From Russula earlei (taxonomy: Eukaryota > Basidiomycota > Agaricomycetes > Russulales > Russulaceae), in NCBI GenBank assembly GCA_025769875.1, contig JAGFNK010000167.1, forward strand, positions 1-64,000: DNA of 64,000 nucleotides. The letters run 5' to 3'. Shown piece after piece: positions 37,380 through 64,000 of the stretch. Position numbers and translations under genes: made by a program. How positions within the stretch are numbered: the stretch's first letter is position 1; every line of letters begins with the position of its first letter. The notes under the pieces are model-generated. The model did no database searches. It worked only from the letters and a program-made list of their open reading frames with translations, and had not been told where the DNA came from.

Positions 37380-38443
37380 GGGTTCGATGTCAAAGGGAAG
37401 TGTTGTGGGCGTCGAATCTTATTCGATAAAGCTGGAACTGGCCATTCCTGGACCGCGACCGACCGTGACCGAGCGCGACCGTTGGGAGAACGACTGCGAT
37501 CAACCGTCACGGCGGTGAAGGACTGATGGCTTGGCATGCGACGCAACTCCATGCCCCGCCCCGCAAGCCCCATATGTACAATAACGGACACATGACAATT
37601 CTTATTTATCACACTTGGTAGGTAGAGGGATGGGGGGTGGTCAATGTGGCCGTTGGCATGGATACGAGACTGAACGGCCCCTCTCGAGTTCCGGTGCCGA
37701 AATTTTTAAGAAAGGGTTTGGCTTGGCCCGTGGGGCTGCGCGACTGTTCGCATAACAGCCTTGTTTCGCGGGCGTGGAGAGGCGCGTCAGGGGGTTGTCA
37801 AGGCAAACGGAGGGGAGGCAAACTTTCCCCGATGTGACAAAGTGGCGACGGACGGCGCCCAGCGATGGGAAAACAGCGCGCGACCCTTGCGACACAGCAA
37901 CGAAGAAATTAAGACTCATGTCGAGAGTGACGGCACGGTGCAAAAAGTTTCCGTCGTCCAGGCGAAAGTGAAGTGGGATTGCACGCCTACGCCTCCAAGG
38001 GTGAACGGCTGGTTAGAAAGGTGCGGGAAGGACCATCCGAGGGGTGAATCAATGACGACGACGACGACAACGACAAGGCGATCGCCGATCAACGGCATCT
38101 CTCTCTCTTTTTTTCAGCTCGGCCCTGTGCTCTGGCGTTCCGTCTGTTCATGGCTTAGCGCGGCCCTTGGCCCTTGGGGGTGGAGGAAGAATTGATATAA
38201 TTTCACCCCTCAGAACGAGCGCTCGTGCTTGCTGCCTCGCTTCCCTCCCCCCCCCTTTCGTTTCACGGTGCTCGTGGTCATCGTCCTTCCTTCTTTCCAC
38301 ATTCATTCCTTTTCTTGTTCTTCACAACGCTTCGCGTCTGGCACGCCCCTCGCTTCTTGACTTTGCTTTTTATACCGCCTCCGCTCTCGTCCTCTCCCTA
38401 AATCTTGCCCCTCAGTCCCTCCCGCCTCGTCACCTAAACCGAA
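37380..38443. promoter_or_regulatory. Divergent upstream region, TRP1 / NoxR
   Basis: About 1.06 kb lies between two divergent start codons. A TGATATAATTTC at about 38193-38204 is a possible TATA-like element about 245 bp before the NoxR start, followed by long pyrimidine-rich stretches (CT-rich from ~38230 to 38430) of the kind often found upstream of fungal start sites. A short (GAC)n-type repeat occurs near 38054. No gene is evident. Confidence 0.4.
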
Positions 38444-42530: not shown

Positions 42531-44283
42531 ATGAGCTCTCACCCGTACGTCGGGCGAAATTCACTGCCTTCTATAGAAGAAGTAACTAATCGAATCTCGC
42601 CAAGTCGTACTCGAAGCCGCGTCCGTCATCAAGTGGCTACACTTCCCTCCGGCTCCGCCCAGCTGCCATTACCTGGCGACCCAGCCTCATCGACTCCGGT
42701 TGATGACCACTCCAAAGGCTCGTCGAAAGGCAAGCGACGTGCCCGTCGCCCGACTCGGAAGGGATTAACCAAACGAGATCAACGTCTGTGTCAGTCATTT
42801 GCGCGACGTGCCCCCGCGACCCACCACTGATCGAAACGGTCCAACGCAGGCAAGGCGACCGCCGGAATCGACCTGCTCCCCGACGAGGTCCTCTTGGAAG
42901 CGTTCCGTTTCTACGCGGACGATTGGCGCGCGCGGACGAGCAAATGGCGCACCTTGGTCCACGTGTGTCGAAGATGGCGACGGGTCGTGCTGGCGTCGCC
43001 GCGTCGCCTCGGCCTGCGCGTCTGGTACGGAGGACTGAGGCCCATCGCGGAGATGGCGGACGTCTGGCCGGCGTTGCCCATCGTCGCCGTGCTGTGGACC
43101 TCGGACGACGAGGAGCAGCGAATCGCGTGTGCGGACAACATCGTCGCCGCGCTCGAGTCGGAGCACCGCGATCGCGTGTTCGAGGTCGACCTCGGGAACG
43201 TTCCGAGTTCGCTCTGGGCGAGACTCGCCGCGGCGATGGAGGAGCCGTTGCCCGAGCTGACGGACCTCCAGGTCTGGCTGCTGAAGGACGACGATCCGGC
43301 GCCGGCCCACGTCCCCGACGACGATCCCGCGTCGGCGTCGTTCCTGGGTGGATCGGCGCCGCGTCTGCAGATGCTCTCGCTGGAAAACGTCCCGCTTCCG
43401 TCTCGGGCGATGCGGAATCTCCTCTTGTCTGCGCATGGTCTCGTCACGCTTTTCCTTTCGAAGATACCGTCCGCTGGGTACATCTCGCCCGAAGCGCTGG
43501 TAGCGGCCATGTCCACGATGACGAGGCTCGAGACACTCTTTCTTCATTTCCTATCCCCACGATCTCGCCCCGACCCGGAAAGCTCGTGTCCGCCTCAAAT
43601 CACACGTTCTGTCCTCCCCGCGCTCACCTGGCTGCAGTTCCAGGGCGTCAGGGAGTACTTGGAGAATTTCCTCGCCCGGATTGATGCCCCTTTGCTCGAC
43701 AATCTCCGCGTAGTATTCTTCATGGACATCATCTTTGATGTTCCACAACTTCACCGGCTCATCGGCCACGCTCAAAAGCTCAAGACACTCGATCGAGCAA
43801 TGGCGTCCTTTTTCAATCACTCCGTTCAGTTCACTCTCTCCCCACAGGCAGGGGAAGCCGATCGTTCGATGCTCGCCTTGGGGATCTCATGCAGAGAGTC
43901 TGATTGGCAGCTCTCGTCCCTTATCCAGGTCTGTAGCTCGTCACTGCCTCTGCCTCTCCACTTTGGAAGAGCTCGAGATCATGGATGGTGATCCACCGCC
44001 GTATTGGAAAGACGATGTGGAGAGCACCCAATGGCTAAAACTTCTAGACCCGTTTGCTGCTGTGAAGAAGCTGTACCTATCCAAACAAGTCGCGCTTCGT
44101 GCCGGGTACGCCCTGCAAGAGCTCTCCGAGGACGCCGTAGCGGAGGTGTTACCTGCGCTCCAGAATCTTTTCGTGGAGGACCTCGAGCCAGCGGAGGCTG
44201 TTCGGGAAGCCATCGAGCCGTTCGTCGCCGCACGACTGCTGTCTGGTCGCTCTGTGGCCCTCCACCATTGGGAAAGACGGTGA
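42531..44283 (+). CDS. F-box/LRR-type protein, one frame break
   Basis: Exon 1 (from ATG 42531) is basic and ends near DQR. A roughly 58-nt intron joins it to KATAGIDLLPDEVLLEAFRFY, an F-box-like start (LPDEVL), followed by WRTLVHVCRRWRRVVLASPRRLGL. The remainder is the leucine-rich scaffold typical of Agaricomycete F-box families (LFLSKIPSAGYI, FQGVREYLENFLARIDAPLLDNL, LGISCRESDWQLSSLIQVCSSS). At about 43940-43960, in a CCTCTGCCTCTCC run, the frame shifts by one base, and homology continues in the next frame (STLEELEIMDGD, then FAAVKKLYLSKQ, VLPALQNLFVEDLEPAEAV) to 44283. No intron fits the shift. Either a recent frameshift or an assembly error. F-box proteins select substrates for SCF ubiquitin ligases. 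Confidence 0.72.
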
Positions 44284-44589: not shown

Positions 44590-45077
44590 TAGTATGCGGT
44601 CGCCCAGTGAAGGCGGTAGCCAGTATGGGCGTGACAAAGGTCACATGACCCAGCCACTGCTATGCGCTTGCTTGATGGGATGTGATGTGCAGGCGCGCAC
44701 AAAGGAAAGCTTCCGCGCGGCGCAGAAACGAGCTCATGGTCGACGCCCCAACAGCCCCTCTCTCACCTATCCCTTCCTCCATCCTTCTTCTCAGAGCCTT
44801 ACCTACCTGCTTGACCTAGTTGAGGCCCTGGAGTCGAAAGCCTATCCGAATAACCATCACCTTCGTCTTATCACTACAATCAGTCAGTGCGTCTTCTTGT
44901 ATCCTGCGTTGGCTTTTGTCTTCCACTGCGAGGTGACTTAATCACTAATTCTCTGCAGGCTGCAGTTAGTGAAGATCATTGCATCATCGGGGAAGGATCG
45001 CGCAAAACTAGGCCTCGTTAGGATCGCAACTTTCCGATCTCTCATCAACGGTGGTTAAGGGAGACATTATCTCAAAA
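44590..45077 (+). repeat. Duplicated upstream region of lectin-fusion copy 1
   Basis: This leader is shared with the sequences upstream of copies 2 (about 51995-52545, opposite strand) and 3 (about 61015-61420, opposite strand). Recognisable shared words include GACGCCCCAACAGC, CCTTCCTCCATCC and GAGGCCCTGGAGTCG. The family was therefore duplicated with its promoter. Confidence 0.6.
44631..44644. promoter_or_regulatory. Inverted repeat GTGAC-N4-GTCAC upstream of copy 1
   Basis: A perfect 5-bp inverted repeat with a four-base spacer (GTGACAAAGGTCAC). The same 14-mer lies upstream of copy 2 at 52371-52384 in the orientation matching that gene. It could be a dimeric transcription-factor site or simply a conserved part of the duplicated leader. 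I did not find it upstream of copy 3. Confidence 0.35.
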
Positions 45078-47749
45078 ATGGCTACCATCCGTGTACAAAA
45101 TATTCCTTTGGGAACTGGTCAAGATAGATTCTGGCTACAGCGTCTGGGCTTCTCTCTCGACACCGTCCTAACATCATCAATTGAAGTTAGCCCTGACAAC
45201 TCTACCAAGATGACTGGAACCGTCACACTACGGAACCCGAGTGAAGTACAGAGGCTGCTGAAACGTGATAACACAACTCCGGCAGGCATTTATCGTTTAT
45301 CATCGAGGATTGCAATCGACAGTCACTTCCGCGGATTCACGGTAGTTGCCGGCGGTACTAATAACAAGTTAGAGTGGGTTTAAATAATATTATCTCATCA
45401 CCAGGTCAAGCTGAGGGTGATGTGATCACAAGCATTATCGCAATTCATGGCCTAAACGGACACGCGTTCAACAGTTGGACAGTCGACGATGTCATGTGGC
45501 TTCGCGATCTTTTGCCCGAACAAGTACCGGACGCTCGGGTGATGCTTTATGGATATACCGCGAATCTCGTAGACGATACTACTGTGTCCCGGATTAAGGA
45601 GCACGCAAGACTCTTCATTAGGTCCCTGCAAGGCTTGGAGGAAATCGTAAGGGTGGCTTTTTGTTTCTCAACTGCTTCTGTTCGTTCAACTGTCGCCTTT
45701 AGGAGAAACGCCGCGTTATTTTCATCTGTCACAGCTTGGGAGGATTGGTGCTCAAACAGGTGTGTAGACATTGGCTAAACGATTCAACATGTTTAGTATA
45801 TTACAGGCGTTGATATACATCAGAAACCAAAGTGAATATTCGGCCCTACGGGATGTTGCAATAGGAGTGATCTTCTTAGGAACACCGCATAGAGGTAGCC
45901 CGCACGCTAATCTGGCCCGTATTCTTGTCAACATTGCCAGAATCTCATTTCGTGCCAATGCGAAACAGCTATTGGCTACTCTTGAGAAAGATTCTGCTAA
46001 CTTGATGGATCTATCTCACAGCTTCAGAGAGATTAGTTCCAAAATGAGGTTAGGCAGCTTTTGTGAGCAATTGCCAATGAAACTGCCTGGAGTGCGTCCA
46101 TTCGTATTTCAGCGTGATACAATTTTTGCTAAATTTGGGTATTAGAAGTTCTTGACGACCCTTGATCTCGGTCTGGTGAGATTGGATGATTCGTGAGCGG
46201 CCGAATATCAGCCAATCGTTCCTATAGATCATCGATCAATGGTCTGCTACTCTTGAGGTCATCGGCGAATTGGTCATTCCCGTTAACCGCGATCATATGA
46301 CCATTGCCAAATATGCCAATGCTGGCGATGAGGTGTACAAGCTAGTTGTTAATCAGGTGAAGAATATGGCAAAGGGGATTGTCACATCTACGCCTCTTTC
46401 AACACACATGACGGCATCTTCAGACAATGCTTCAACAAGAGGTGATTACCTTTCGATTATGTCAATTGTTCCTTTGAAAAAGGGTTCCTAGATTCCCGCA
46501 GATTGCTAAACGTCCTCGATATCTCGATACCAAGTCAACCCGAAGTAACGACTGAGGACAGAGATCCAATCTCCGACAGCAACAACATGTCTAATTCACG
46601 ACTGCCACCGCCATACAATATTGACGTTGTATCTACAACGTCCACAGAAGTCCAGTCTACTGATCTACGATCTGGCAGCACTTCTTCGCCTAGGTTAGTA
46701 AATATCTCCCTAAGGAATCATCGCTTCAACTTGAAGAAGTCCCCAGCGCGAACCCGTACATTACGCCTATCGCATTCATTTCAGAATTGCTGACGAAACC
46801 GGACAAGATTTCCGCGTCATCGATCGCGCTGTAAAGGGAACGAGTGACATCTGGGAAAAGACGTCCCTTACAACTTTCAAACTGAAAATGAGGGGAAGTG
46901 GGACCTCTGGGAGCTTACTACTCAGCAACAACAACTCTTCCGAATTGTTCTCTGTAGCGGCCGGAATGCACAACGATAACCCATGGGGCGATATCGTCGT
47001 CGATGTGCCGGGTTATGCTGTGTCGCAACTTATCACTGATTCGTACTACGAATCGCGATCTGGGAGATTGTCGGCCAACTCGAAAAAAGAAGAAAGGACG
47101 AGTTCTCGAGGAACGACTATATTCCTTACGATATCGGATCTGCAGTGGGATGGCGAACGAATTGCGACAGTTCTCATTCGTGACAGAGGTCAGATTAGTA
47201 CGCCTCCTCCAGAGTGAGTGCTCTCGGTACCTCAATCTACCTGTACCATTGAAACTATCCAGAGAAATTCTCGTTGAGCTCGATATACCACCAGCCCCTG
47301 ACTACGAGTATTGTATCCTGTTACGTATCCTGGACAAGACTACGTACGGATTTCGCGTTGCCGGCCAGGACCTCTTCGATCCAGATAACGACCTCTGGCA
47401 AATCTTTCTTCCAACGCAACTCCGATTGTGCATGATGCATCACGGAAAGTCCGCAACCTTGCTCTTTGAGGATGGTTCCTCCTCGGAACGCTTTTCGATC
47501 GCAGTCGGGATTCACGATTATAAACCGTGGTGCGATATTCTCACGGACTTGCCTGCCAAAGCAAGGCTCTCCATCATTAATAAGACGTACTATGGAATTC
47601 GAGGGGATAGACGCTTGGCCAATTCGTCGAGGGAAAGAAAAGTGACTTCGAGAGGGACGGCTGTGTTGTTACAGATCTCAGGTTTGCAATGGGATGGAAG
47701 CTACAATGCCACAGTGACGATATCAAGTACCCGAAACCTGTATACGTGA
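45078..47749 (+). CDS. Hydrolase-double lectin fusion, copy 1 (frame break in linker)
   Basis: ATG 45078 gives MATIRVQNIPLGTG, a small RRM-like region ending FRGFTVVAGG. An intron at 45374-45432 joins it to an alpha/beta hydrolase of the SERAC1/SesB-like kind: IIAIHGLNGHAFNSWTVDDV, MWLRDLLPEQVPDARVMLYGY, nucleophile elbow ICHSLGGLVLKQ, GVIFLGTPHRGSPHA, and a likely catalytic His in VNRDHMTIAKYA. A linker follows (46270-46680). Two fruit-body-lectin domains then occur: ~46745-47214 (MRGSGTSGSLLLS, FSVAAGMHNDNPWGDIV, TDSYYESR) and ~47272-47749 (FSIAVGIHDYKPWCDI, INKTYYGIRGD, LQISGLQWDGSYNATVTI). In Agaricus bisporus lectin the matching GTSGS, HN and DIV positions border the T-antigen pocket. 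Near 46480 an A-run is one base shorter than in copy 3, so the frame stops at 46491 before the lectins. The hydrolase may be made alone. Confidence 0.72.
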
Positions 47750-49020
47750 ACTGCAAACTATGATCTACTTTACCATTACTACGCTATTAATCAAACCAAC
47801 TTGGCTAATATGAAAGTGTAAGCCTCCATTATGGTTACGGTATTCTTGCTAATCGGTCTCTTTGTCATTTAGCGCAAAGGGCTGTAAGCTTACAGGACTT
47901 CCTTTCGCGTCGTGCTTTCAAGGCTCGCCTTTGTGATTGTGGCCCAATTGAATCCCACTGGCTCGCCTGGTTTCATTCCCCTTTATGTCATCTCGCCCGC
48001 TCTCGATGGCCCTTCCACTATCTCACCATTCCCTTTCCCTCGAACAGGACGTTATAACGAACTCGCCCAATCGTTCGCTGTCATCGCCGTCGTTGGAGCC
48101 GAAAGCTCACTGCCCGATTGCTTGGCGCTTTTATCATCGCGGCGCCACATGACTCTCGCGGCCAGTTCTTATGTCTCCCACCCAACTCGTTGGATCCCTC
48201 GTTACGACTCCGTTTGTCTCAACTTTACCCTTTGTCGCCTCGTTCATCGTCTACGGCCCGCTTTCATACCTTTTCCTTTCATCGCCTCTCTCTTATAGTT
48301 TTTCTGTGTATACAAACTCTCTAGTCACTCTCCGGAACACGAGTTCGGTCTCCAAAACGCCCGAGCACGAATCGCCTTCCTCAACCCCACCTCAAGACGC
48401 GCCTTCTTTGCTCATCGATCTCGTCTGCTTCTGTGTCCGACATCCTCCTGGGACTGCTTTCCTCCCTCTCTTCCTCAGGTCTATGCCAGCATCACGAAAT
48501 TACCTGCGCGTCCCCACACATGCTACTAATACACCGCCTGACACCTCCATCATCCCCTTTGCATTTGAAGGAAGGGAGGATACATAGCTCATCTACCATC
48601 GTCGGATAAAATAGCATCTTCCTAAATGACTCTCGAAGCGGGGCGGGTTTCGGCTTCGGAGTCCCACTTTCACTACTGAGAGGTAAATGTGACTGTTTAC
48701 TCTTCTCTGAGGGCCCATGGCCTTTCCAGCCGTCAGATGAAGGTGTGGTGACAGACGGCGAGGCAGAAGCAGGAGAAGATGTCAACTAGTAGCTAGTTGA
48801 CTGACCTAGAGGCTTTCCCAACGCGACACGCTAAGAGGTCCAGGAGGAGACGGTAAGCACCTTTGGACCAGCGTTCTCCGACCAAAGATGTAAGACGCCC
48901 AGTTGTGCTGATTGAACGCTCCTGGAGGGATGAAGTTGTGAGACCACTTGGCGCAGGCCGGAGAGGGCAGCAGGAACGAACTGCTTGGGGAGAGTAGTGG
49001 CAGCAGCTCGTACGGGGATA
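47750..49020. other. Intergenic with unresolved Ser/Pro-rich frames
   Basis: Several overlapping open frames (about 47912-48587 on + and 48492-48785 on -) are rich in Ser, Pro and Leu and do not form a coherent gene model. Nothing with recognisable homology was found. They may be remnants of a decayed gene or pure composition effects. Confidence 0.35.
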
Positions 49021-49490
49021 CATTGTCATGCGAGGACGCGAACTTGAAAGGAGTTCTTGGATCGGCGACACAGAGGCGGTATCCAGAGGCATAGATATTC
49101 TCTCATACTTGGTTTTGAGCGTGGGCATAGCAATGAAATGTTTCAGAGTCATTCGATTAGTTTTTGGCAATCTCTAAGGTGGTCACGTGGTGGCCATAGC
49201 CGGCGTCCAATCGCTACCGTACCGTCCTCTTGGACTTCTTATCATGTTGCACTGGGAGGGCCTCCAGGCCAGTAGTGAAGTCAACTGCAGCCTCTTCATT
49301 GCATTCTGCTCCTTTGCATCACACCTTCATCTCAGCCGCTGAAATGCAATCGACCAGAGAGAAGCCAGTCATGTTTGCCTCTTGATAGTGAGAGTGGGAC
49401 TGCGAGGCCGAAGCATTCCGTCTTACGATAGCAGACGAGCTACATCTTCCCTTCCTTGAAGAATAACGGGATGATGAGGGCATTGGCGGA
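49021..49490. repeat. Duplicated flanking segment, copy A
   Basis: This segment recurs in the same orientation at 53142-53629 (matching from CATTGTCATG, through GGACGCGAACTTGAAAGGAG and GACTGCGAGGCCGAAGCATTC, to AGAATAACGGGATGATGA). A shorter inverted piece occurs near 61570-61630. It adjoins the 3' end of lectin-fusion copy 2. In the second copy the same junction is split by an LTR retrotransposon, so this copy is the empty site. Confidence 0.7.
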
Positions 49491-49588
49491 TTATGGTACC
49501 ACATCCCGCCTGTTTGTCGAAATCGATTTCATCAATAGCGTAGTAATGGTAAAGTAGATCATAGTTCGCGATTCACGTATACGGGTTA

Positions 49589-51994
49589 TCAGATACTTGA
49601 TATAGTGACTGTGGCAGTGTAGCCCCCATCCCATTCCAAACCCGAGATCTTTAACAACACCACAGTTCCTCTCAAAGACACTTTTCTTGCTCTCGTCGAA
49701 TTGGCCCGGCGACGTTCCCCTCGACTTTGGTAGTATGTCTTGTTGATGACGGGAAGCTTCGCTTTGGCGGGCAAGTTTGTGATAATATCGCACCACGGTT
49801 TACCATTGTGAATCCCGGCTGCGATCGAAAAGCGTTCCGAGTTAGAACGGTCCTCAAAGAGTAAGGTTCCAGATCTCTCGCTATCCGTCACGCACAATCG
49901 GAGTTGCGTCGGAGAGAACGTCTCCCAGAGGTCGTCCTCTGGATTCAAGAGGTTCTTGGCAGCAATGTAAAATCCCTCTGTGGTCGTGTCCACGACACGA
50001 AACTGAATACGATACGCGTAGTCGGGGGCTGGTGGTATATCGAGTTCAACTTCTCTGGGTAGTTTTAATGGTAGATGTGGATTGAGGTACCGGGAGCACT
50101 CACTCTGGAGGAGGCGCACTGGTGCTGATCTGGCCTCTGTTACGAATGAGAACTGTCGCAATACGTTCGCCATCCCACTGCAGATCCGATATCGTAAGGG
50201 ATATGATCGTTCCTCGGGAACTCGTCGTTTCGTTTTTATCGGAATTGGCCGAGAATCTCCCAGGTCGCGATTCGTAGTACGAATTGGTGATAAGTTGCGC
50301 GAGAGCATTATCAGGTACATCGACAACGATATCGCACCATGGCTTATCGTTGTGCATTCCGGCCGCTACAGAGAACAATTCGGAAGATTTGCTGTTGCTG
50401 AGTAGTAAGCTCCCAGAAGTACCACCTCCCCTCATTTTCAGTTTGAAAGTTGTAAGGGACGTCACTTCCCAAATGTCACTAGTTCCCTTTACAGCATGAT
50501 CGATGACGCGGAAATCTTGACCGGTTTCGTCCGCAATTCTGAATTGAATGCAATAGGTGTAATGTGCGGGTTCGCACTGGGGACTTCTTCTAGTTGAAGC
50601 GATGATTCCTTGGGGAGATAGATATTTAATTTACTAACCTGGGCGAAGAAGTGCTGCCAGATCGCATATCAGCAGACTGGACTTCTGTGGACGTTTTGAA
50701 TACAACGTCAATATTGGGTGGCAGTCGTGAAGACATCTTGCGGTCGGTGATTGGATCTCTGTCCTCAGTCGTTACTTCGGGTTGACTTGGTATCGAGATA
50801 TCGTGGACGCTTATTAGGCCCCTTTTATCTTTACCAACCGCATTCTTATTTGGCAATGGTCACATGATTGCGGTTGAGACGACGGGAGACTCAAGGATAG
50901 CAGGACCAATCTATAGCTAAGCTATAAAAACGATTGGCTAACATTCGGCAGCTCACAAGTTATCCAATCTCACCAGACCGAGATCAAGGGTCATCAAGCA
51001 CTTCTAACACCCAAATTTAGCAAAAATTGTATCGCACTGAGATACGTATGGACGCACTCCAGGCAGTTTCATTGGCAAAAGCTGCCTAGCTTCAGTTTGG
51101 AACGAAGTTCTCTGAAGCTGTGAGCTAGGTCCATCCGGTCAACAGAATCGTTCTCAAGAGTAGACAATAGCTGTTGTTGTTTCGCATTGACACGAAAAGA
51201 GATTCTGGCAATGTTGACAAGAATGCGGGCTACCTCTATGCGTCTACACACTTGTTTGAGCACCAATCCTCCCAAGCTGTGACAGACGAAATAACGCAGC
51301 GTTTCTGCTGGAGGCGACAGTTGAACGAACAGAAGCAGTTGAGAAATAATAAGCCCCCTCATGATTTCCTCCAAACCTTGCAGGGACTTAATGAAGAGTC
51401 TTGCGTGCTCCTTAATCCGGGACATAGTAGTATCTTCTACGAGATTCACGTTATATCCAGAAAGCAACACCCGAGCGTCCGGTACTTGTTCGGGCAAAAG
51501 ATCGCGAAGCCATATGACATCGTCGACTGTCCAACTGTTGAACGCGTGTCCGTTTAAGCCATGAATCGCGATGATGCTGTCATCACATACCCCTCAGTCA
51601 GCTTGGCCTGGTGATGAGATTATATTATTTGAACGTACTCCAATTTGTTATTAGTGCCGCCGGCCACTACCGTGGATCCGCGGAAGTGATTGCCTGCGAT
51701 CCTCGATAATAAAAGATAAAGGCCTGCCGGAGTTGTGTTATCACATTTCAGCAGCCTTTGTACTTCACTCGGGTTCCGTAGTGTGACGGTTCCAGTCATC
51801 CTGGGGATGCATGTTGCCAATCAGCCTTAGCTGCTTACAAATACCTGGGGATCATGCTGTATACCTCTTGAGTTGTCAGGGCTAACTTCGATTGATGATG
51901 TTAGGACCCCGTCGAAAGAGAAGCCCAGATGCTGTAGCCAGAATCCATCTTAACCAGTTTCCAAAGGAAAATTTTGTACGCGGATGGTAGCCAC
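49589..51994 (-). pseudogene. Hydrolase-double lectin fusion, copy 2 (hydrolase decayed)
   Basis: Homologous over its length to copies 1 and 3, but the start codon is GTG at 51994 instead of ATG. A CAA-to-TAA change follows about 13 codons later. An extra ~70 bp interrupts the N-terminal region near 51790-51860. About 116 nt are missing between the nucleophile exon (FVCHSLGGLVLKQ) and ILVNIARISF, removing the GTPHRGS segment. A 10-nt deletion follows near 51085, and most of the hydrolase-lectin linker is gone. Both lectin domains remain open (50100-50560: MRGGGTSGSLLLS, GMHNDKPWCDIV; 49589-50060: AGIHNGKPWCDIITNLP, NKTYYQSRGE) and are joined by the same intron as in copy 1. A lectin-only product from an internal start is possible but unproven. 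Confidence 0.72.
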
Positions 51995-52545
51995 TTCGGA
52001 GATAATGTCTCCCTTTACCACGGTTGATGAGAGGTTGGAAAGTCACGATATTCGAATTTGAATAAGGCCCGATTTTGCACGCTCCTTTCCCGGTGATGCA
52101 ATGATCTTCACTAACTGCGGCCTGCACAGAATTAGCGGTTAAGATGAAGATGTCACCTCACAGTGGAACGGAGGACGCAAGAAGACGCCTGACTGATCGT
52201 AGTGATAAGACGAAGACCGGTGATGTTTATTCGGATAGGCTTTCGACTCCAGGGCCTCAACTAGGTCAAGCAGGTAGGCAACGCTCTGAAGAAGAGGGAT
52301 GGAGGAAGGATAAGTGAGAGAGGCTGTTGGGGCGTTGACCACTCATGGCTTTCCAAAGTGGCTGGGGAATGTGACCTTTGTCACACCGCAAAACAATCCC
52401 ATACCCCATACTGACTCTGATACGCTGCACTTTAATGCCTTCACTTGTAAATCGCATTGCCCTTGGAAAAAATCCCATTGAATCACAGGAATTACAGGTA
52501 TCTATCATAATAAGTAAGACACGACCGCATGCTACATCCCGAGGG
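51995..52545 (-). repeat. Duplicated upstream region of copy 2
   Basis: This matches the leader of copy 1 in inverted orientation, including the GTGAC-N4-GTCAC inverted repeat (52371-52384) and a GGTACCCTCGGGATGTAG block near 52530-52550. The TIR element at 52572 was inserted just upstream. Confidence 0.6.
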
Positions 52546-52571
52546 TACCTCAGCATAGCCACTGACTCACA

Positions 52572-53141
52572 CATCAGCAAACCACAAAAAAAATTCCTGG
52601 GTTTTTGTTGGTTTCCACTGGTTTCCCAGTTTCCGGAAACCGAAAACCCAGAAACTGGGAAACCTGGTAGACATCATGAAGCACACTGGAAAACAATTCA
52701 AGTTTTCTATGGTCACATCGACCATCTGAGTGAGCGATGCTGGCACCTTGCACTGGAATGTGCAGACAACGATGGTGACAATGAATCCCTTCATCGTGCT
52801 GATGCCTCGATGATATCTGCATTCCATGCTGATCTGTATATACCTGAGAGTCCCCTCAAGGCTTAGATCCGTACCAGCTCGAATTGACTTCCAATTACAA
52901 GTAGAAATAATGTATACCCTATTTCTGACCATTTTCTCCCTACTATACTATAGTTCTACCAGTTTCCATACTTTCGACAGGTTTCTGTTAGTTTCTTAGG
53001 TTTCCATGAAAGATACTCTCAGGTTGTTTCCAGGAAACCAGACATGGGTTTCCCAGTCTCCTGGTTTCCCGGTTTCCACTGGTTTTTTTTGGTTTCCTGA
53101 GGTGAGAAACCAACAGAAACTAAAATCCATCTTTACTGATG
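52572..53141. mobile_element. Short TIR element, copy 2 (~570 bp)
   Basis: Same element as at 41597-42177, same orientation, with identical CATCAGCAAA and TTTACTGATG termini and only scattered differences plus a few short indels. The flanks share CA/CA, again a possible 2-bp target duplication. The internal frame (LALECADNDGDNESLHRADA) is preserved. High similarity between two copies 11 kb apart points to recent activity or recent duplication. Confidence 0.65.
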
Positions 53142-53629
53142 CATTGTCATGCAAGGACGCGAACTTGAAAGGAGCTCTTGGATAGGGGACACAGAGGCGG
53201 TATTCAGAAGCACGGATATACTCGCAGACTTGGTTTTGAGCACGTGCATAGCATAGAAATGGTTCAGAGTCCAAAATTTCATTCAATTAGTAGCGTCTAA
53301 GGTGGTCACATGGTGGCCAAAGCTGTCTGTGGCAGATGATCTTGGTTGGTCTTCTTAGACTTGGATTTCCCAGCATGTTGCACTGGGAGGGCCTCCGGGC
53401 CAGTAATGAAGTCTACTATGGCCTCTTCATTGCATTCTGCTCCTGCTTCTGCCTTTGCGTCACACCTTCATCCCAGCCGCTGATGTCTGGCAATGCCATG
53501 TACAACCAGAGAGAAACTGGTCATATTTGCCTCTTAGTAGTGAGAGTGGGACTGCGAGGCCGAAGCATTCCATCTTATGATAGCAGACAAACTACATCTT
53601 CCCTTCCTTGAAGAATAACGGGATGATGA
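53142..53629. repeat. Duplicated flanking segment, copy B
   Basis: The second copy of the segment at 49021-49490. It starts exactly where the TIR element ends and stops at the left target-site duplication of the LTR retrotransposon. Its continuation resumes at 58250 after the element, leading into lectin-fusion copy 3. Confidence 0.7.
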
Positions 53630-54064
53630 TGTTGAGATAAAGCATAGCCAAAGTGTTGATGCGTCGGCCCAAACTGTCTGGGTGGCCCACAGGCCCGGAC
53701 CACATAAGCATTTCAGATCAGTTGCTGAAACACATACAATAACAAAATTGATAGGGTGATCTAAGACAATTGGTAGCTAGCACATAGCAATTGTGAAAAC
53801 AATTTGATAGTTACTACAGACAAAATAATTAGGGATGCTCTCAGATACTTAAGAGCGTCGTACATACAGTAGATACTTCAGTTTCTTCTCACAGAAACTA
53901 AAGTAAGTACTTACTATCTCACAATCTTATCAGTAGCTGATTACGTGCTGTAGTATCATTTTATTAGGTAAATATGACACAAGTAGTTTCTTCTCACAGA
54001 AACTGAATATCATTTTATTAGATCTACTATGATCTAATCTTCCTTATCACTGCACGATTCAACA
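53630..54064 (+). repeat. 5' LTR
   Basis: 435 bp, TG...CA, with 6-bp terminal inverted repeat TGTTGA/TCAACA. It contains two copies of GTTTCTTCTCACAGAAACT. It differs from the 3' LTR at about thirteen sites, most at CpG-derived dinucleotides. Confidence 0.88.
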
Positions 54065-54076
54065 GGTTATGGGCCC
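54065..54076 (+). promoter_or_regulatory. Primer-binding site, half-tRNA iMet type
   Basis: GGTTATGGGCCC directly follows the 5' LTR. It is complementary to the anticodon stem-loop of eukaryotic initiator tRNA-Met (GGGCCCAUAACC), as in Drosophila copia, which primes from an internally cleaved tRNA. The match is to the anticodon arm, not to the tRNA 3' end. Confidence 0.65.
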
Positions 54077-54500
54077 TGGCCACTACTAAATTCCCAAGAC
54101 AGAAATCCACATACAAGCTCACACAGTCTATCCACACATTCTCTCCCCTTCACGAGCCACTGTTCATCAGAATGACACCCCACACTTTCAGTACTTGGAT
54201 TGAAGTTTTGACCCACGCGTCAGGGGTACTGATCAGATTTCTAACATCTGGCATGCATATTTGCTCCACTTGCCCAGATTGGCTTTATCACCCCATTTAC
54301 CTAATCGAATCACATGGCACCTTGCCTAATGTTTACGTTCCCTCCTCGATCTTGATCACTTGCTTGGTCATCTCGCTTACTGGCCATTACCCCATCGTGC
54401 ATCGCACTACAGTTACAGATGATAGCCCCTCCAGCAATACTTCTTAGGACGCTGAGGGAGAACTCTTTTAGACACATGCACTCCTGAAATATACATTCAG

Positions 54501-54977
54501 ATGGTCACATCAGCAGTAACAAAAATGACACTAAATTGTATACTTGCAAGCTCAAGTGGGAGGAACTCAAATGCACATATGGCAGCATCAGATCAATGTC
54601 AAATGTTCTACACATGGGCATCCCTTACACGCACATTCCTAGACATTAAACAACACACATCAGACGTTCCTGTGATTGCAACAAACGATGCATGGATCAC
54701 TCTCCAATATAACCATTTATTCATATCGAATCTTCATTTCATGTTACCCAACGCTTACTTGGCTGTCACATTGACAAATTCTAGCCTCCGGCGCTCCGAT
54801 GAACCTTTCCCCACACAATCCAGGTACAGATCAAATGAAGATGGTTGTCAGGCCGGCCTCTCCACCTCACAAAATATAGTCATTCCAGTAAAGACACACA
54901 ATGCTACGTCCGAGATACAATGCTGCTATTGCAATAAACTTGGGCATGCAGTCTGGACTACTGGAAGGAGAAGGTGA
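54501..54977 (+). pseudogene. Gag-like remnant with imperfect zinc knuckle
   Basis: An open frame of 158 codons in the 5' part of the element. Near its end is CCYCNKLGHAVWT, matching the CX2CX4HX4C retroviral-type knuckle except that the final Cys is replaced by Thr. An upstream NDAWITLQY-like segment is plausible Gag. Probably non-functional. Confidence 0.5.
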
Positions 54978-55165
54978 CGAATACAAAAGTGACAGGCACT
55001 GACAGAAACATCAGCGCGTACATAGTGGGCAATACTGCTCCTATCACTGAGGTATCGAACGTCTGATGAATATGAGATTCTGGGTTTCCCTTTACGCGGC
55101 AACTAGATCTTGATTGACTACAGAGCTCATCATATTAGTCTGTTCTGGACCCCCAACTTCATTAT

Positions 55166-57146
55166 TTGTGCTCCAGCCTCCAGATCTATTACTCTGGGAG
55201 GTTATACAGTCATCAGACAGATTGGGACTGGATCTGCATCCGTCCTGCTGGCCGGAAGGCCTTGGAGATATCCTTATTAACCCTCATAGACATTCTACAT
55301 GTACCGAAGGCTGATGCATGCAACTACACAGTGTGCGCGCTACTTTGGAATGAGGGATGCATCACATACACTCAAGAGGGGTGTTCAAATTTACACATCA
55401 AAGATCGGAAGATCACACACAGCTGGCTGGAGAACAATCTATTGTGTAGTAACTTCATAACTCCAGCTCTACAAGTGCAAAGAAGTGTCCTATCATTCCA
55501 CATCCAGCATCAGCACATGAGGCATATGTCCACACACGCATTAATCTATTACTGTGATTCCGGTACCCGGATCTCGCTTGGCTTTACGGATTGCGATCAG
55601 TTATCCTGTCCAGAGTATACACTTGGCAACTGAATGCTTCTTTTCTGGGTTTCCCCTTAGCGATTGGATCCTTGGCTACAAGATTATCTACAGCACCTTA
55701 GCCAATCTGCTGCACATGAGATCAATTTGAGGCGCTAGCTATTGAGGCAACATGCACTCACATACTTATCAGTTCAATGAGGGATCATACATAGATTAAC
55801 AATGCCAGATTTACCACAGGAGAATAGAGTACCGAAAGATGGAATCGGACCCTTAAATACAACATGCATTCAAAAGTTACACAGCACTGGTCTCACTCTC
55901 GGGTTCTGGAGCTCAGTACTAACGCTACCCTCCATACTAATGATCAGACTCCATCACGCATTCTCTGTGCATGCACACTTCATACACTGTGAACGGACAG
56001 ACTGACTCCGGTCATCTCACAATTCCACCTTCTTTAGATGTAGGGCGTATGTCTACACACCTGACCATCGCGATCTTATAGCGCGACAAGCGCATACTGC
56101 ATAGCCAGGGGACATGTTACAGACACTGCTCCGCCTGCACAACTCTTGGTCCCTACAGGACCAGTGACATTCTCTGCCTTAATTTCACATGAACCGGATC
56201 ATTGGCACTTTGTTCCACGCCTCTGGAAACCCCATTAGATTCCCTCACACCACACTCACTATACCTTACCCCGCCTATACAGCCAGTTACACGTGTTCTG
56301 CCATACCATTTACACCATCCTCACTCAGCATTATTGGGACAATTCATTGGTCCACCGCATCTGCTCTCAGTTACACATCTTGGGTCTTATTCGCATCCAC
56401 GTTCCAAATGTCTCGGAGGGACTGCACACACAGATCCGAGAGGGTGCTTATCACATATGGCTCGGCCACGTGGAAATGATCACTGGGCTACATATCGGGA
56501 AGGCACTTTATTGGATTTTGCCGATGAGTGGCAAGTCGCGTATCCATATGTGATCGGCGCATTTGTGAAAAATGGTCCCTGGGATCTTGTCGATCTTATC
56601 GGAATGGGTGTGCAGCACGCAAATCTTGGAGATTTCACGTGCATTTCAGTTGCACAGGGGTTCACCCAATTTACAAGGCATTGACATTGATGAAACCTTC
56701 TCACCAGTAGCCAGGTCCAAGTCTTAGCAACTCTTGTTCAGCATTGGCCACGCTAGCATATGGATTGGGAGATCTGAGGACATCTTGTCAACATTCATCA
56801 TCGGCTCACTGGGTGAAGAAGATTAGAATTATTTGGAGCAATCGCAAGGTTTCATCACACTGAAAACACTTTTTTGGTCTTACACAGGCCTCTCATACAT
56901 GGGACCTACGTTCTCATGGAGTCCTTAGTGACTCGTGTTCAACTTATCTCGGTTGCATGCACACGCATTCTCATGCGGACATATGTCATCGCCAAGACAT
57001 GGGGGGATCCACTATCATTTTGCTCCACTATCATTTTGCTTCACATCCTCTCTGCTGATGACATCATTATCTTAGGCGACCCTTGCAGTCTTGACGCTCA
57101 CATCTACAGGTGCAATATCTATCTTTGTCTATGCGCTATGAGTTGA
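55166..57146 (+). pseudogene. Copia Pol remnants
   Basis: Fragments in different frames are consistent with integrase and reverse transcriptase. The best are KNGPWDLVDL (~56572-56600) followed by VAQGFTQ and DETFSPVAR (~56648-56715), which together form the N-terminal edge of a copia reverse transcriptase, and LHILSADDIIILG (~57045-57080), a degraded form of the YVDD-type catalytic region. No long continuous frame survives. Confidence 0.55.
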
Positions 57147-57490
57147 CAGATCTAGCCAAGATCGCGTCATACCTTGGGACCCACATTACACGCGATTGCT
57201 AGGCTAACACAGACATTGATTAATCAAGGCACATCTCAGATTTCTTCGGGATGGCAGATTCCACTCTGCTTCTGTAATCTGTAATCTCGGAGGTCTTACC
57301 TTGGGATGGCAGACTTCTGTTCCACTTCTGTATTCCACTCCATTCAGACACAGAAATCCGTTTGATCAAGCACTCCAGAGAAGCAACGCCTGTGGCGACT
57401 AGGCAAATATTAATGTTTTAACAGCAGCCTCCCCTATGTGCAGATCTGAACACTCTATAGATAGTCTCTCGACTCTGCGTCCACACGCAT

Positions 57491-57710
57491 TCACCTTTCC
57501 TTTTGGAGTCTCTCAACTCACAGTCTTATCGACTCACCCACTCGTTCACCTTTCCTTTTGGAGTCTCTTGACTCACAGTCTTATTGACTCACCCACTTGT
57601 TCACCTTTCCTTTTGGAGTCTCTCGACTCACAGTCTTATTGACTCACCCACTCATTCACCTTTCCTTTTGGAGTCTCTTGACTCACAGTCTTATCGACTC
57701 ACCCACTTGC
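57491..57710 (+). repeat. Minisatellite, four 55-bp units
   Basis: Four tandem units start at 57491, 57546, 57601 and 57656, each beginning TCACCTTTCCTTTTGGAGTC and differing by a few substitutions. They lie between the Pol remnants and the 3' LTR of the retrotransposon. Confidence 0.85.
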
Positions 57711-57815
57711 TGATGGTCTACCAAGATGCACGTGCACCACACACAAATGCACTCTTTCATCACTGGATTAGGTCTCATCTGATCTAATCTACTGACTGTC
57801 AAGATCACAGGGGGA

Positions 57816-58249
57816 TGTTGAGATAAAGCATAGCCAAAGTGTTGATGCATCGGCCCAAACTGTCCGGGCGGCCCACAGGCCCGGACCACATAAGTGTTTC
57901 AGATCAGTTGCTGAAACCGTACAATAACAAAATTGATAGGGTGATCTAAGACAATTGGTAGCTAGCACATAGTGATTGTGAAAACAATTTGATAGTTACT
58001 ACAGACAAAATAATTAGGGACACTCTCAGATACTTAAGAGTGTCGTACATACAGTAGATACTTCAGTTTCTTCTCACAGAAACTGAAGTAAGTACTTACT
58101 ATCTCACGATCTTATCAGTAGCTGATTACGTGCTGTAGTATCATTTAATTAGGTAAATATGACACAAGTAGTTTCTTCTCACAGAAACTGAATATCATTT
58201 TATTAGATCTACTATGATCTAATCTTCCTTATCACTGCGCGATTCAACA
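57816..58249 (+). repeat. 3' LTR
   Basis: 434 bp, direct copy of 53630-54064, preceded by the purine tract AGGGGGA and followed by the GATGA target duplication. Confidence 0.88.
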
Positions 58250-58360
58250 GATGAGAGCATTAGCGGATTATGGTACCACATCCCGCCTGTTTGGCGAAGA
58301 CGATTCCATCAATAGCGTAGTAATGGTAAAGTAGATCATAGTTCGCGCGTATGCGGGTTA

Positions 58361-61014
58361 TCAGGTACTTGATATAGTGACTGTGGCAGTGTAACCTCCA
58401 TCCCATTGCAAATCTGAGATCTTTAACAACACAGCCGTTCCTCTCAAGGACACTTTTCTTGCCCTAGTCGAATTAGGCCGGAGTCTTGCCCCTCCTCGAC
58501 TTTGGTAGTATGTCTCGTTGATGATGGAAAGTTTCGCATTGGCAGGCAAATTTGTGATAACATCGCACCACGGTTTACGGTCGTGAATCCCGACTGCGAT
58601 CGAAAAGCGTTTCAAGGAGGAGTGGTCCTCAAAGAGTAAAGTTCCGGATGTCCCGCTATCTGTCATGCACAATCGGTGCACTGGAGAGAACGTCTCCCAG
58701 ACGTCCTTATCTGGATCCAAGAGGTTCTTGGCGGCAACGCGAAATCCATGTGTAGTGTTGTCCATGATATGAAACAGAATACGATACGCGTAGTCGGGGG
58801 CTGGTGGTATATCGAGTTCGATTTCTCTGGATAGTTTTAATGGTAGATGTGGATTGAGGTACCGAGAGCACTCACTCTGGAGGAGGCGCACTGGTGCTGA
58901 TATGGCTTCTGTTACGAATGAGAACTGTCGCAATACGTTCGCCGTCCCACTGCAAATCCGATATCGTAAGGGATATGATCGTTCCCCGGGAACTCGTCCT
59001 TTCTTCTTTTTCGGAATTTGCCGACAATCTCCCAGATCGCGATTCGTAGTACGAATTGGTGATAAGTTGCGACACAGCATTACCAGGTACATCGACAACG
59101 ATATCGCACCATGGCTTATCGTTGTGCATTCCGGCCGCTACAGAAAACGACTCAAAAGATTTGCTGTTGCTGAGTAGTAAACTCCCAGAAGTACCATTTC
59201 CCCTCATTTTCAGTTTGGAAGTTGTAAGGGACGTCACTTCCCAAATGTCACTAGTTCCCTTTACAGCGCGATCGATGATGCGGAAATCTTGACCGGTTTC
59301 GTCAACAATTCTGAACTGAATGCGATAGGCGTAATGTACGGGTTCCGGCTGACGACTTCTTCAAGTTGAAGCGCTGATTCTTTAAAGAGATCATCACTAA
59401 CCTAGGAGTGTTGCCAGTTCGCAGATCAGCAGACTGAACTTCTGTGGACGTTTTGGATACAACGTCAATATTGGATGGCGGTGGCAGTCGTGAATTAGAC
59501 ATGTTGTTACCGTCGGAGATTGGATCTCTGTCCTCAGTCGTTACTTCGGGTTGACTTGGTATCGAGATATCGAGGACGTTTAGCAATCTGTGAGAATCTA
59601 GGAACCCTTTTCTCAAAGGAACAATTGACATAATCGAAAGATAATCACCTCTTGTTGAAGCATTGTCTGAAGATGCCATCATGTGTACTGAAAGAGGCGT
59701 AGATGTGACGATCCCCTTTGCCATATTCTTCACCTCGTTAACAACTAGCTGGAACACAACATCGCTAGCATTGGCATATTTGGCAATGGTTACATGATCG
59801 CGGTCAACAGGAATGACTGGTTCGTCCGCAAGAGTGGCAGACCATTGATCGACTACCTATAGGAACGATTAGCTGATATTCGGTGGATCGTGAATCATTC
59901 AAAGCTCACCAGTCCGAGATCAATGGTCGAGAACGGCTAATTCCCAAAATCAGCCAAAATGTGCATTCACGCTGAAATACCCCGAGACGTACCCCAGGCA
60001 ATTTCATCGGCAATTGTTCACAGAAGCTGGCAATCTTCAGTTCGGAATGAAATTCTTTGAAGCTGTGAGCTAGGTCCAGCAAGCTAACTGAATCCTTCTT
60101 AATAGCAGTCAGTAGCTGCTTCGCATTGGCACGAAACGAGATTCTGGTAATGTTGACAAGAATTTGTGCCATATCGGCGTGTGCGCTGCCTCCATGTGGT
60201 GTTCCTAGGAAAATCACTCCTAGTGCGACGTCCCGTAGGGTCGAATATACATTTTCGTTTCTGATGAATACCAACGCCTGTAACAAAATACGCATCTCTC
60301 AAATCGGTTGGCCAATATTTACACACCTGTTTGAGTACCAATCCTCCTAAGCTATGACAGATGAAAATTATACGACGTTTTTGCTGGAAGGGACGAGTGA
60401 ACGAGTGAACGAACGAGAGATATTAAGAAAGAAAAAAAGTTGCCCTCACAATTTCCGCCAAGCCTTGCAGGAGCTTGATGAAGAGTCTGGCGTGTTCCTG
60501 GATCCGGGACCTAGAAGCATCTTGTATGATATTCGCGTTATATCCATAGAGCAATACCCGAGCATCCGGTACTTGTGCGGGCAAAAGATCGCGAAGCCAC
60601 ATGACATCGTCGACCGTCCAACTGTCGAACGCGTGTCCGTTCAAACCATGAATCGCAACAATGCTGTTATCACATCACCTCAGCGCGACCTGGCGATGAG
60701 ATGATATTATAAACCTACTGTAAGTCACTATTACTGCCGCCGGCAACTACCGTGAATCCTTGGAAGTGAACGTCTATTGCGATCCTCGATGCTACACTGT
60801 ATGGGCCTGTCTGGGTAGTGTTATCAAGTTTCAGCAGCCTCTGCACTTCACTCGTCTTCCGTAGTGTGACGGTTGCAGTCATCTTGGTAGAGTTGTCGTG
60901 GCTTACTTCAAGTGATGATGTTAGGACGGCAGCGGGAGAGCAGCCCAGAACGTCCTGCAAAAATTTATCATGATTGGTATTCGAAGCAATATTTTGTATT
61001 CGGATGGTAGCCAT
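58361..61014 (-). CDS. Hydrolase-double fruit-body lectin fusion, copy 3 (appears intact)
   Basis: ATG 61014 opens MATIRIQNIASNTNHDKFLQ. An intron at 60664-60718 (GTAGGT...ACAG) joins the N-terminal domain to the hydrolase (IVAIHGLNGHAFDSW, DLLPAQVPDARVLLYGYNAN, nucleophile elbow ICHSLGGLVLKQ, GVIFLGTPHGGSAHAD, VIPVDRDHVTIAKYA). The linker DISIPSQPEVTTEDRDP ends NTPR. Splicing here (GTTAGT...TTGAAG) leads in frame to lectin domain 1 (MRGNGTSGSLLLS, GMHNDKPWCDIVVDVPG, TNSYYESRSG), and a further intron to domain 2 (AGxIHDxKPWCDV-type block: VGIHDRKPWCDVITNLP, NETYYQSRG, LKISDLQWDGGYTATVTI), stop at 58361. Roughly 800-850 residues, no signal peptide or membrane helix. Lectins of this fold bind Gal-beta-1,3-GalNAc and include nematotoxic and insecticidal fungal proteins; lectins fused to a hydrolase would act in a different way. 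Intron borders near 59900-60000 are uncertain. Confidence 0.75.
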
Positions 61015-61989
61015 TTTGGAGGAAATGTCTCCCTTGACCACCCTCGATGAGAGATTAGAAAGTTACGATCCGAATGAGGCCCGGTTTTGCGCGCTCTTTC
61101 CAATGACTGCAGCCCGCACAGAAATCAGGGTTGATATTAAGTTGCTGCTGTCACCTGGCAGTGAAAGATGCGAAAGCAGGATGCAAAAAGGGGACAGCCT
61201 CTCAATTGATCGGGGGTGATAATGATGATAAGACGAAAACTGGGATGATAACGATGATGAGACGAAGACCGGGGACGGGGATGATAGTTGGCTAGGCTTT
61301 AGGCTCCGGGGGCTCAGGAAGGTCAGGAAGGTAAGGCGACGCTCCCGAGAAGATGGATGGAGGAGGGGATAAGGCGAAGCTGTCGGGGCGTCTCCCACAC
61401 TCATCAACCCATCAATACCTTCGGGTTTCCGCGAGCGCCGGCACGCAGCTTTTTCCACGTCTTTGTACCAAAGCAGTGACAGACGCAAACAGTAATTCGG
61501 GTTGGTCTCCCACGGGAAGTTGAAGTCCAACCAAGCTGCCCGTTGACTATGCCTCGAAATACGGCTGCCACCCCACTGGCATCTGTGTCCCCTATCCAGA
61601 AACTCCTTTCAAGTTCGCGTGTTCGCTTGACAGCGCGTCTCTTCAATTACCCTGTATGCCACTGCTCTCTCCATCCAGGTCGCTCCCGTTTCTCCGTCTC
61701 ACACCCTTTGTCCTACCGAAGCGCTTGATCTGCATAAGGTCTGACATTATTGGTCGAACAATGTTCAAAGAAGGCGCTACCTCCTCTCGAATATCACAGC
61801 GTGTTATTGGAGGAGGTGCAATGAGAACGAGAGCTGGCGGAAGTCTTTGACATTTCGCGGCGTGTTGAATTACCATAAAAGGCGATTGTGTCGGCAAGAG
61901 AGTCGGGACTTCAATCACGCGTTAATGGATGTAATTTAGTTATATAAGTGGGTTAATAATAAGATAACTCCTTACCATTTTCCCCCTAC
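61015..61989. repeat. Upstream region of copy 3 with duplicated pieces
   Basis: 61015-61420 is the diverged leader shared with copies 1 and 2. It includes a short imperfect repeat of GATGATAAGACGAAAACTGGG-like units at about 61221-61284. Near 61570-61630 lies an inverted, shortened piece of the 49021-type segment (matching CTCCTTTCAAGTTCGCGT). No independent gene is recognised in 61430-61989. Confidence 0.5.
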
Positions 61990-62026: not shown

Positions 62027-64000
62027 TTGGCATGCCATCCGCATCATCCGCCCATTCCGGCCCGAGTGCCCCTTTTGCGACAATGTTTCCAGATCACTGC
62101 CAATTCTGGAAAGAGGGGAGGACTCAATTATGACTGGGAGCACGGCAGATACCCCATGGAATGGCTGACAGCAGCCAATTTCAACGCGTGGCGCCGGCAA
62201 GAAGAATTGGCTCACTCAATTGAATTGATTCCATCCAGCACCAAGCATGGGCAGGGATGGACAAAGAAGGTTTTCATCTGCTCCCGCCAACTATCTGGGG
62301 GAGCTTCAAGTTATATAAAGAAGCACCCCGATCACACATGGAGATCTGAGATCAAGAAGACGGGTTGCCGTTGCCGAATAGTCATCAAGTCTTACGCGGA
62401 TGTGCCTACCATTCTTGGACAATATGCAAGCGAGCATTCTCATGAAATTGGAATTGCTAATCTTGCTTACACATGAATGTCACGTGTAGCATGTGATAAA
62501 ATTAAATTCATGCTGTCAAAGAAGGTTGATCCACGGGAAATAGTAAGTGCCTGTATTGAATTTATTTTATTTTTATTCGCTAACTTAATAATGGAAAGGT
62601 ACACAATATTCAGGATTCATCGCCCGATGGCAGCTGAGACCGATTCATCTCACTCCGGGATGTAAGCCGCATGGCCCGGGAAATGGAAGATGAGATTATC
62701 AGGCTGCATCCAGAGGATGCTATCTCCACCAGGCTCTGGTTGGACAGGTTTACAGATGAAAAAACAAATGTTTTTTACAAAGACAGGCTGCACAGTGCCC
62801 CATCTCAATCAAATCTGCAGGAGGATGCATATGTATTATGCATCCAGACCCCTTTCCAAATGGAGGCATTCTGCTGCCTCAGGAATGGCTTCATCGGTAT
62901 CGATGCAACTCATAATATTACTCAATATCTGGACTTCTTATTATTTACCATGATCACGCGCGATCACTGGGGACATGGTGCGTAATATTTACTAAATGTC
63001 AATTTAGCGCGCTTACCCTTTCCAGATAGGTGTGCCTGTTGCCTGGATGCTGGCATCCAATGGAACAAAGGACACAATATCCTTTTTTGTCCATTGGGTC
63101 AGGGATGCCAGTCCGGCTATCTGGCCATCTATTATTATGACAGATCGTGATGCTGCGCAGATTGCCGCCCTCAAGATTGCCTATCCGGGAAGTCGGATAT
63201 GGCTTTGCAAGTGGCACGTGTTGCGCGTGATGCGATCACACTTCAATGCTAACAATTTTCCTGATCTGTGGGATAAGATCAAGAGATGGGTACATACAGA
63301 TGATCAGGCCGACTTTCTACAAATCTGGGAGGAGATCTCCACTGATCCTCAGGTTCCAGAAACTTTTGTGAACTATCTTGGGTCTCAATGGATGCCTGTG
63401 GTGCATATGTGGTCCATGGTTTACCAGAAAAATCAACATATCTTTGAGGAAGGGGACACCAACATGTTGATTGAAGCGTATGTGATCCTCCCAATCTAAA
63501 GATAAGATGACTCAATCTTTTTAGATATCATCATGTCCTCAAATCACATTGGCTCGACAGCAAGTGCAATTGGTGGATCGATCGAATATTATTTGTTCTA
63601 GTGCATCGCATGGTGCTATATTACCAAAACAGGCACGAATGGCAGAACGTCGGGCTCGATGGTCAGGACCTGGCAGCTGACAGGCGTCATATAATTTTCA
63701 CCCATGCCGAGAGCATCTCACAAGATTCGATCTTGCAATTCGATGAGATCTGCTTTCACGTCACTTCACAGTCCTGTTCCAGCGCATTTTACTCAATCAA
63801 TCTGATGAAGTCAACTTGTGATTGCACAGATTATCCCCAGATTAGATTCTGCAAACACATTGCAGCAATCTACATCCATTTTCCCTACCTCTGTCCTGAG
63901 GGGAGCACACAAAAGGAAAGTGCAAATAAATCACCTGACCCCCCATCCCCATCATCTTCTTCATCCACACCAAGGGAGAGCCTAGTATCTCTCTCACAGG
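62027..64000 (+). pseudogene. Mutator-like (MULE) transposase, right end outside window
   Basis: The N-terminal block FNAWRRQEELAHSIELI..., TKKVFICSRQLSGG and KKTGCRCRIVIKSY is a FAR1/WRKY-GCM1-like zinc-binding region. Next come VACDKIKFMLSKKVDPREI, an intron-like gap, MAREMEDEIIRLHPEDA, and the MULE core: GFIGIDATHNITQYLDFLLF (first catalytic Asp), PVAWMLASNGT, SIIMTDRDAAQIAALK (second Asp), IWLCKWHVLRVM. A SWIM zinc finger CxCx(n)CxH (TCDCTDYPQIRFCKHIAAIY) follows near 63813-63870. Two in-frame TGA codons (62474-62476 and 62635-62637) sit where relatives have Arg, consistent with CGA to TGA. The coding region seems to continue past the right edge. Terminal repeats were not identified. Confidence 0.75.

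Follow-up and report, generated by a model that had tools for sequence, protein, structure and literature searches.

A SesB-like hydrolase joined to two fruit-body lectin domains in Russula earlei and Cerrena zonata: a candidate recognition protein

Fused genes in the window

The window analyzed in this study is a stretch of 64,000 nucleotides of Russula earlei (GenBank assembly GCA_025769875.1, contig JAGFNK010000167.1, positions 1 to 64,000, forward strand). It carries two intact genes, copies A and C, each encoding an N-terminal region resembling an RNA-recognition motif (RRM), a SesB-like alpha/beta hydrolase, a linker, and two tandem fruit-body lectin domains (FB_lectin, PF07367), together with a decayed copy B (Table 1). 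The original prediction, made from the letters alone, had described a three-copy family; its positions and domain order were borne out by spliced models built from GT-AG junctions and by Pfam, and copies A and C are single fused genes, but copy B is broken and the family comprises eight loci, not three.

Copies A and C each consist of nine exons separated by GT-AG introns of 43–66 nt and encode 753 and 743 amino acids (aa), while the models of the other intact genes, D, F, and H, comprise 735, 727, and 731 codons in eight exons each. All five intact genes agree in the lengths of exons 2, 3, and 4 (214, 57, and 285 nt), and this agreement, together with the very strong FB_lectin matches, makes chance implausible as the source. 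The public annotation fuses copy A with both lectins (P0002, 737 aa), using another acceptor before lectin 1 that leaves 16 residues fewer than our model, and fuses copy C only as far as lectin 1 (P0001, 598 aa). When the last intron is left unspliced, the frame stops just past lectin 1, and the public models P0001 and P0003 break off at this same point.

In copy B, frame-breaking indels interrupt the exons of the hydrolase as well as the one that connects it to the linker, and both lectin exons are open except for a one-base difference near the very end.

Table 1. Positions of the fused genes and their parts (window numbering; locus D on the same contig)
Feature	Positions	Strand	Basis or state
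Copy A, intact fused gene, 9 exons, 753 aa	45078..47749	+	Spliced model, Pfam, public annotation F5148DRAFT_1286402 (P0002, 737 aa)
Copy A exon 1, RRM-like N-terminal domain	45078..45373	+	
DUF676/SesB-like hydrolase of copy A (alpha/beta), from exon 2 into exon 6, with HSLGG elbow and the His of DHMTIAK	45433..46381	+	Pfam DUF676; lipase fold matches
Copy A linker, predicted to be disordered, from within exon 6 through exon 7 into the start of exon 8	46382..46740	+	pLDDT; open frame in five intact genes
Copy A lectin domain 1	46741..47213	+	FB_lectin; primary sugar-site residues kept
Copy A lectin domain 2	47263..47749	+	
Copy B, decayed	about 49592..52000	-	Hydrolase frame broken, lectin exons open to near end
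Copy C, intact fused gene, 9 exons, 743 aa	58361..61014	-	Spliced model, Pfam; annotated as P0001
Copy C exon 1, RRM-like N-terminal domain	60719..61014	-	
Copy C DUF676/SesB-like hydrolase, low-coordinate limit approximate	59700..60663	-	DUF676 match
Copy C lectin domain 1	58876..59358	-	FB_lectin, spliced model
Copy C lectin domain 2	58361..58826	-	FB_lectin, spliced model
Locus D, just past the window (contig C167)	68516-65948		Intact

Hydrolase and N-terminal region

A profile search proposed in advance was run on the first models of copies A and C (743 and 734 aa, one mini-exon short), and it recovered in both a DUF676 hydrolase above the Pfam cut-off of 20.3 (28.1 bits in A, 32 bits in C) as well as two FB_lectin stretches each (121.1 and 133.6 bits against a cut-off of 25). 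DUF676 fell below its cut-off in P0003 (16.6) and in the Cerrena zonata protein P0004 (19.7). The predicted HSLGG elbow is present, the HSxGG motif is invariant, and His317 is kept in at least 90% of 16 aligned rows; the Ser and His of the hydrolase are probably catalytic. A fold search, in which neither lectin 1 nor the hydrolase was submitted alone, matched the hydrolase of copy A to lipases and found the FB-lectin (actinoporin-like) fold.

The original prediction also linked the hydrolase to the N-terminal effector domains of fungal NOD-like receptor (NLR)-like proteins, NOD being the nucleotide-binding oligomerization domain, and this kinship is supported by the company that related hydrolases keep. 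In a length-limited, word-seeded profile search, 7,998 candidates were scored and 143 hits were obtained; among the best 120 listed, four carry FB_lectin, and 99 of the 116 others show, by eye in the precomputed Pfam column, a P-loop nucleoside triphosphatase (NTPase) or a TPR, ANK, or WD repeat family (PF24883 and PF13191 we take to be NTPase families). The NLR share of these relatives is inflated, since the length limits exclude short free-standing hydrolases. Among other uses, the Talaromyces proteolyticus protein P0067 fuses a DUF676 hydrolase to HeLo and ubiquitin-conjugating domains, which is an unusual non-NLR context. Fungal NLRs are presumed to use SesB-like domains as lipase effectors, and SERAC1, a human relative of these domains, has phospholipid esterase activity (PMC4986451).

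The RRM-like nature of the N-terminus is moderately supported. No RRM (PF00076) match was found in copies A and C, and among nine related N-termini two matched PF00076 below its cut-off of 20.7, namely one Russula paralogue on contig C133 (18.5 bits) and the Lentinula edodes protein P0038 (16.8 bits). A profile of the N-termini built without P0038 retrieved it weakly (probability 39%, E 3e-4); a comparison with P0038 itself in the profile was set aside as circular.

Lectin domains and sugar sites

The predicted lectin signatures are present as quoted, but lectin 2 deviates from them (GKSAT and HDYKPWCDIL in copy A). The 12 fused domains were aligned to fragments of ABL and XCL, with site residues numbered as in ABL. 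The primary-site Ser, Gly, His, and Asn are all retained in four of the ten domains from Russula (lectin 1 of A, lectin 2 of F, and the two lectins of H) and in the two from Cerrena, thus in 6/12 fused domains overall; the primary-site His is retained, and the second-site Arg aligned, in all 12. The Tyr114 position is Y or F in both Cerrena domains and in none of the ten Russula domains. In BGL, changes of S48, G49, or H71 abolish or nearly abolish binding of the Thomsen-Friedenreich (TF) antigen, and a change of R103 abolishes N-acetylglucosamine (GlcNAc) binding, according to PMC7794217. Judged from these residues, some sugar sites of the fused lectins may be functional.

A rival explanation, which we consider possible, if unlikely, is a fruit-body defence chimerolectin: a protein stored in the cytoplasm that would attach through its lectins to the glycans of grazing animals and so deliver a lipase. 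It would work like MOA of Marasmius oreades, which is a mushroom enzyme–lectin fusion with another enzyme and another lectin fold. The whole primary sites in 4/10 Russula and 2/2 Cerrena domains and the second-site Arg aligned in all 12 speak for it, S48, G49, and H71 serving TF-antigen binding and R103 GlcNAc binding in BGL, as does the part that FB-lectins play in defence against parasites and micropredators (PMC10890737); the relatedness of the hydrolase to NLR effectors and the loss of at least one primary-site residue in 6/10 Russula domains speak against it.

In a 14-row lectin tree, the fused domains form one branch separate from ABL and XCL, which are just two outside sequences, and the two Cerrena domains group together with modest support (85/78). 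This tree would be compatible with a single or a repeated origin of the tandem pair.

Linker and continuity of the reading frame

The predicted structure of P0002 has a predicted local distance difference test score (pLDDT) below 50 over residues 345–440. Omega, estimated by NG86 for ten paralogue pairs, was 0.22–0.67 in the hydrolase, 0.21–0.61 in lectin 1, and 0.31–0.71 in lectin 2, and it was 0.32–0.92 in the N-terminus and 0.44–0.98 in the linker. An excess of substitutions at third codon positions was observed in the hydrolase and lectins, with hardly any in the linker (172, 193, and 199 substitutions at the three codon positions), where 10/38 alignment gaps have lengths other than multiples of three, each in a comparison of A or C with D or F. 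By these patterns, the hydrolase and both lectins seem to be maintained, whereas the linker seems loose.

The weak constraint on the linker, its flat codon positions, and its frame-disrupting gaps are what would be expected if hydrolase and lectins were separate genes misjoined by gene prediction. We consider this highly improbable and rejected it, because the five intact genes, whose introns match, have a frame that runs unbroken through the linker, as does the independently deposited Cerrena protein, which carries the same fusion; hydrolase and lectin 1 are joined in the public annotation of A, C, and F as well. Computation shows one continuous gene frame, the identity of the domains, and their folds, along with the relatedness of the hydrolase to NLR effectors, omega values below 1, and the recurrence of the architecture in a second order.

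Gene family in the assembly

A profile search of the 66.6 Mb assembly gave 28 FB_lectin matches, all above cut-off, which we grouped into eight loci, A to H, seven of them present on two contigs. Loci A, B, C, and D lie on contig C167 (103,479 bases), which carries the window, with second copies on C513; loci E, F, G, and H lie on C351, with second copies of F on C972 and of G and H on C189. The paired contigs probably represent two haplotypes and the second copies alleles, the DNA identity between them being 98% across A–B and across C.

Five of the eight loci (A, C, D, F, and H) hold intact full-length genes. For A, D, F, and H, the frame of the other allele is open too; in that of copy C (C513:13527-11339), a premature stop interrupts the linker, the window allele being open. 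Loci B and G are broken, G in its other allele as well; locus E retains linker and lectins without the hydrolase, and its lectin 2 diverges near its end. In copies B (window 49592-50558) and E (C351:6087-6998), the lectin pair is readable to near its end beside a broken or absent hydrolase, and these copies could be lectin-only products, decoys, or remnants.

Paralogues of the RRM–hydrolase half were also observed. Those on contigs C355, C702, C421, and C135 (L020–L023) are truncated near-copies that contain an inserted stretch and what is left of lectin 2, located in long segments sharing 88–98% identity, and NACHT matches occur on three of these contigs (C355, C421, and C135). Contigs C133 and C277 (L017–L019) hold divergent copies without an FB_lectin match, and a further match to the RRM–hydrolase half lies on C1373. 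No NLR fusion was seen among the paralogues on C133, C277, C355, C702, C421, and C135 when their open frames were inspected by eye.

Around the array, a MULE transposase domain (above cut-off) with a weak FAR1 match (below cut-off) lies some 1 kb past the copy C start (62027-63496), a weak F-box-like match below cut-off lies upstream of copy A (42831-43988, + strand), and pieces of tryptophan-pathway genes (GATase, IGPS, PRAI) form a housekeeping neighbour (34933-37418, - strand). No het-B-like partner gene was found beside the array among the nine window frames scanned.

Distribution among fungi

The Cerrena zonata protein P0004 (606 aa, Polyporales), whose annotated start omits the N-terminal part, comprises hydrolase, linker, and two FB_lectin domains, with 33–36% identity to H, A, and F. 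The architecture is a real domain fusion occurring in two mushroom orders, Russulales and Polyporales. The fusion searches were word-seeded and length-limited, scoring 8,000, 2,946 (lectin half alone), and 7,998 candidates; the lectin-half search returned three proteins, from these two species only, and no FB_lectin fusion beyond R. earlei and C. zonata appeared among the matches listed in any search, although others may exist.

The Lentinula edodes protein P0038 (472 aa) has an RRM-like N-terminus followed by the hydrolase, with 38% identity over 286 aa, and its C-terminal region gave no Pfam match at E 1 and no lectin. As the same half is here joined to another C-terminus, the hydrolase half looks like an exchangeable effector. 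The C-terminal region of P0038 begins near YPVLILGQYTYWALSYIDNRY and may be another sensor module.

It is also conceivable that the protein is a lipid-modifying enzyme tethered by its lectins to endogenous glycolipids or glycoproteins, with no part in non-self recognition. The esterase activity of human SERAC1 (PMC4986451) and omega values below 1 would agree with such a role; we nevertheless regard it as quite improbable, given that the lectin fusions were found in two species only, among the matches listed, and that broken copies adjoin intact ones.

Proposed function

No NACHT or NB-ARC (NOD) match, no C-terminal TPR, ANK, or WD repeats, and no HET domain were found by Pfam in copies A and C or in P0002, P0003, and P0004, whose C-terminus is FB_lectin. 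The lectins thus occupy the place where the NOD and repeats of an NLR stand, in line with the original prediction that the lectin pair replaces the NLR sensor half; a replacement by descent would be conjectural, no RRM–hydrolase–NLR protein having been seen. The fusion is better read as a NOD-less sensor–effector protein than as an NLR.

The reading that we prefer, and which might equally prove right or wrong, is that of an intracellular recognition protein in which sensing falls to the tandem FB-lectins and the effector role to the SesB-like hydrolase. The two C-terminal lectins would bind a ligand, either a glycan, free or carried on another molecule, or a protein partner of the het-B kind; binding would cluster or relocate the protein via its flexible linker, and the lipase-type domain would then act on membrane lipids, leading to cell damage or a defence response. 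We infer that the genes are expressed, that the hydrolase has lipase activity triggered by ligand, and that the protein has a cell-death or non-self role. Its location is presumably intracellular, no obvious signal peptide being visible by eye. The glycan trigger of the original prediction is possible, but the data would suit a protein partner or a role in defence as well.

Several observations weigh against a recognition protein of this kind. The Russula alleles are close (98% DNA identity), whereas het-B alleles are divergent; the linker is under little coding constraint; the NLR share among the hydrolase relatives is inflated by the search length limits; no NLR with the RRM–hydrolase half was seen; and canonical FB-lectins are better known as defence lectins. 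A fuller version, in which two working FB-lectins sense intracellular glycans and switch on the lipase in a NOD-less basidiomycete family of immune or allorecognition receptors, with one lectin fold coupled, in place of an NLR, to HET in Ascomycota and to a lipase in these mushrooms as cell-death effectors, seems to us doubtful and rather unlikely.

Work on FB-lectins has centred on free-standing lectins of defence and on their use as glycan tools, and the SesB-like lipases, an abundant class of presumed effectors in fungal NLRs, are poorly understood. A natural lectin–lipase fusion is a compact system in which sensor, enzyme, and sugar site can each be mutated. The Russula and Cerrena fusion and het-B together suggest that the FB-lectin fold may be a general recognition module on different fungal effectors.

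Comparison with known systems

The original prediction knew of no description of the architecture, and we found none of a SesB or DUF676 hydrolase joined to an FB-lectin in the open-access full-text literature, but the principle has a precedent in HET proteins with the FB-lectin fold and no NOD (PMC10890737), which the original prediction did not mention. According to that source, het-B of Podospora anserina encodes BH, a HET-domain protein with a C-terminal FB-lectin fold that sets incompatibility specificity with a PII-like partner, and 13 of 132 HET proteins of this species carry the fold. BH resembles the Russula fusion in its N-terminal effector, its C-terminal FB-lectin fold, and the lack of a NOD there described; it differs in its HET (TIR-like) effector, the HAD domain in between, its single lectin detected by Foldseek, and its occurrence in Ascomycota, whereas the Russula protein has a SesB-like hydrolase and two Pfam-recognised lectins.

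Fungal SesB-like NLRs, with NACHT or NB-ARC and repeats, share a related N-terminal hydrolase and presumed effector (PMC4986451), but the Russula fusion has no NOD and no TPR, ANK, or WD repeats and has two lectins and an RRM-like N-terminus. The free-standing FB-lectins ABL, XCL, BEL, SRL, and BGL (PF07367) share the fold and many sugar-site residues with the Russula lectins, which are, unlike them, fused, in tandem, and on their own branch of the tree. Lentinula P0038 is alike in its RRM-like region and hydrolase and unlike in its other, lectin-free C-terminal region.
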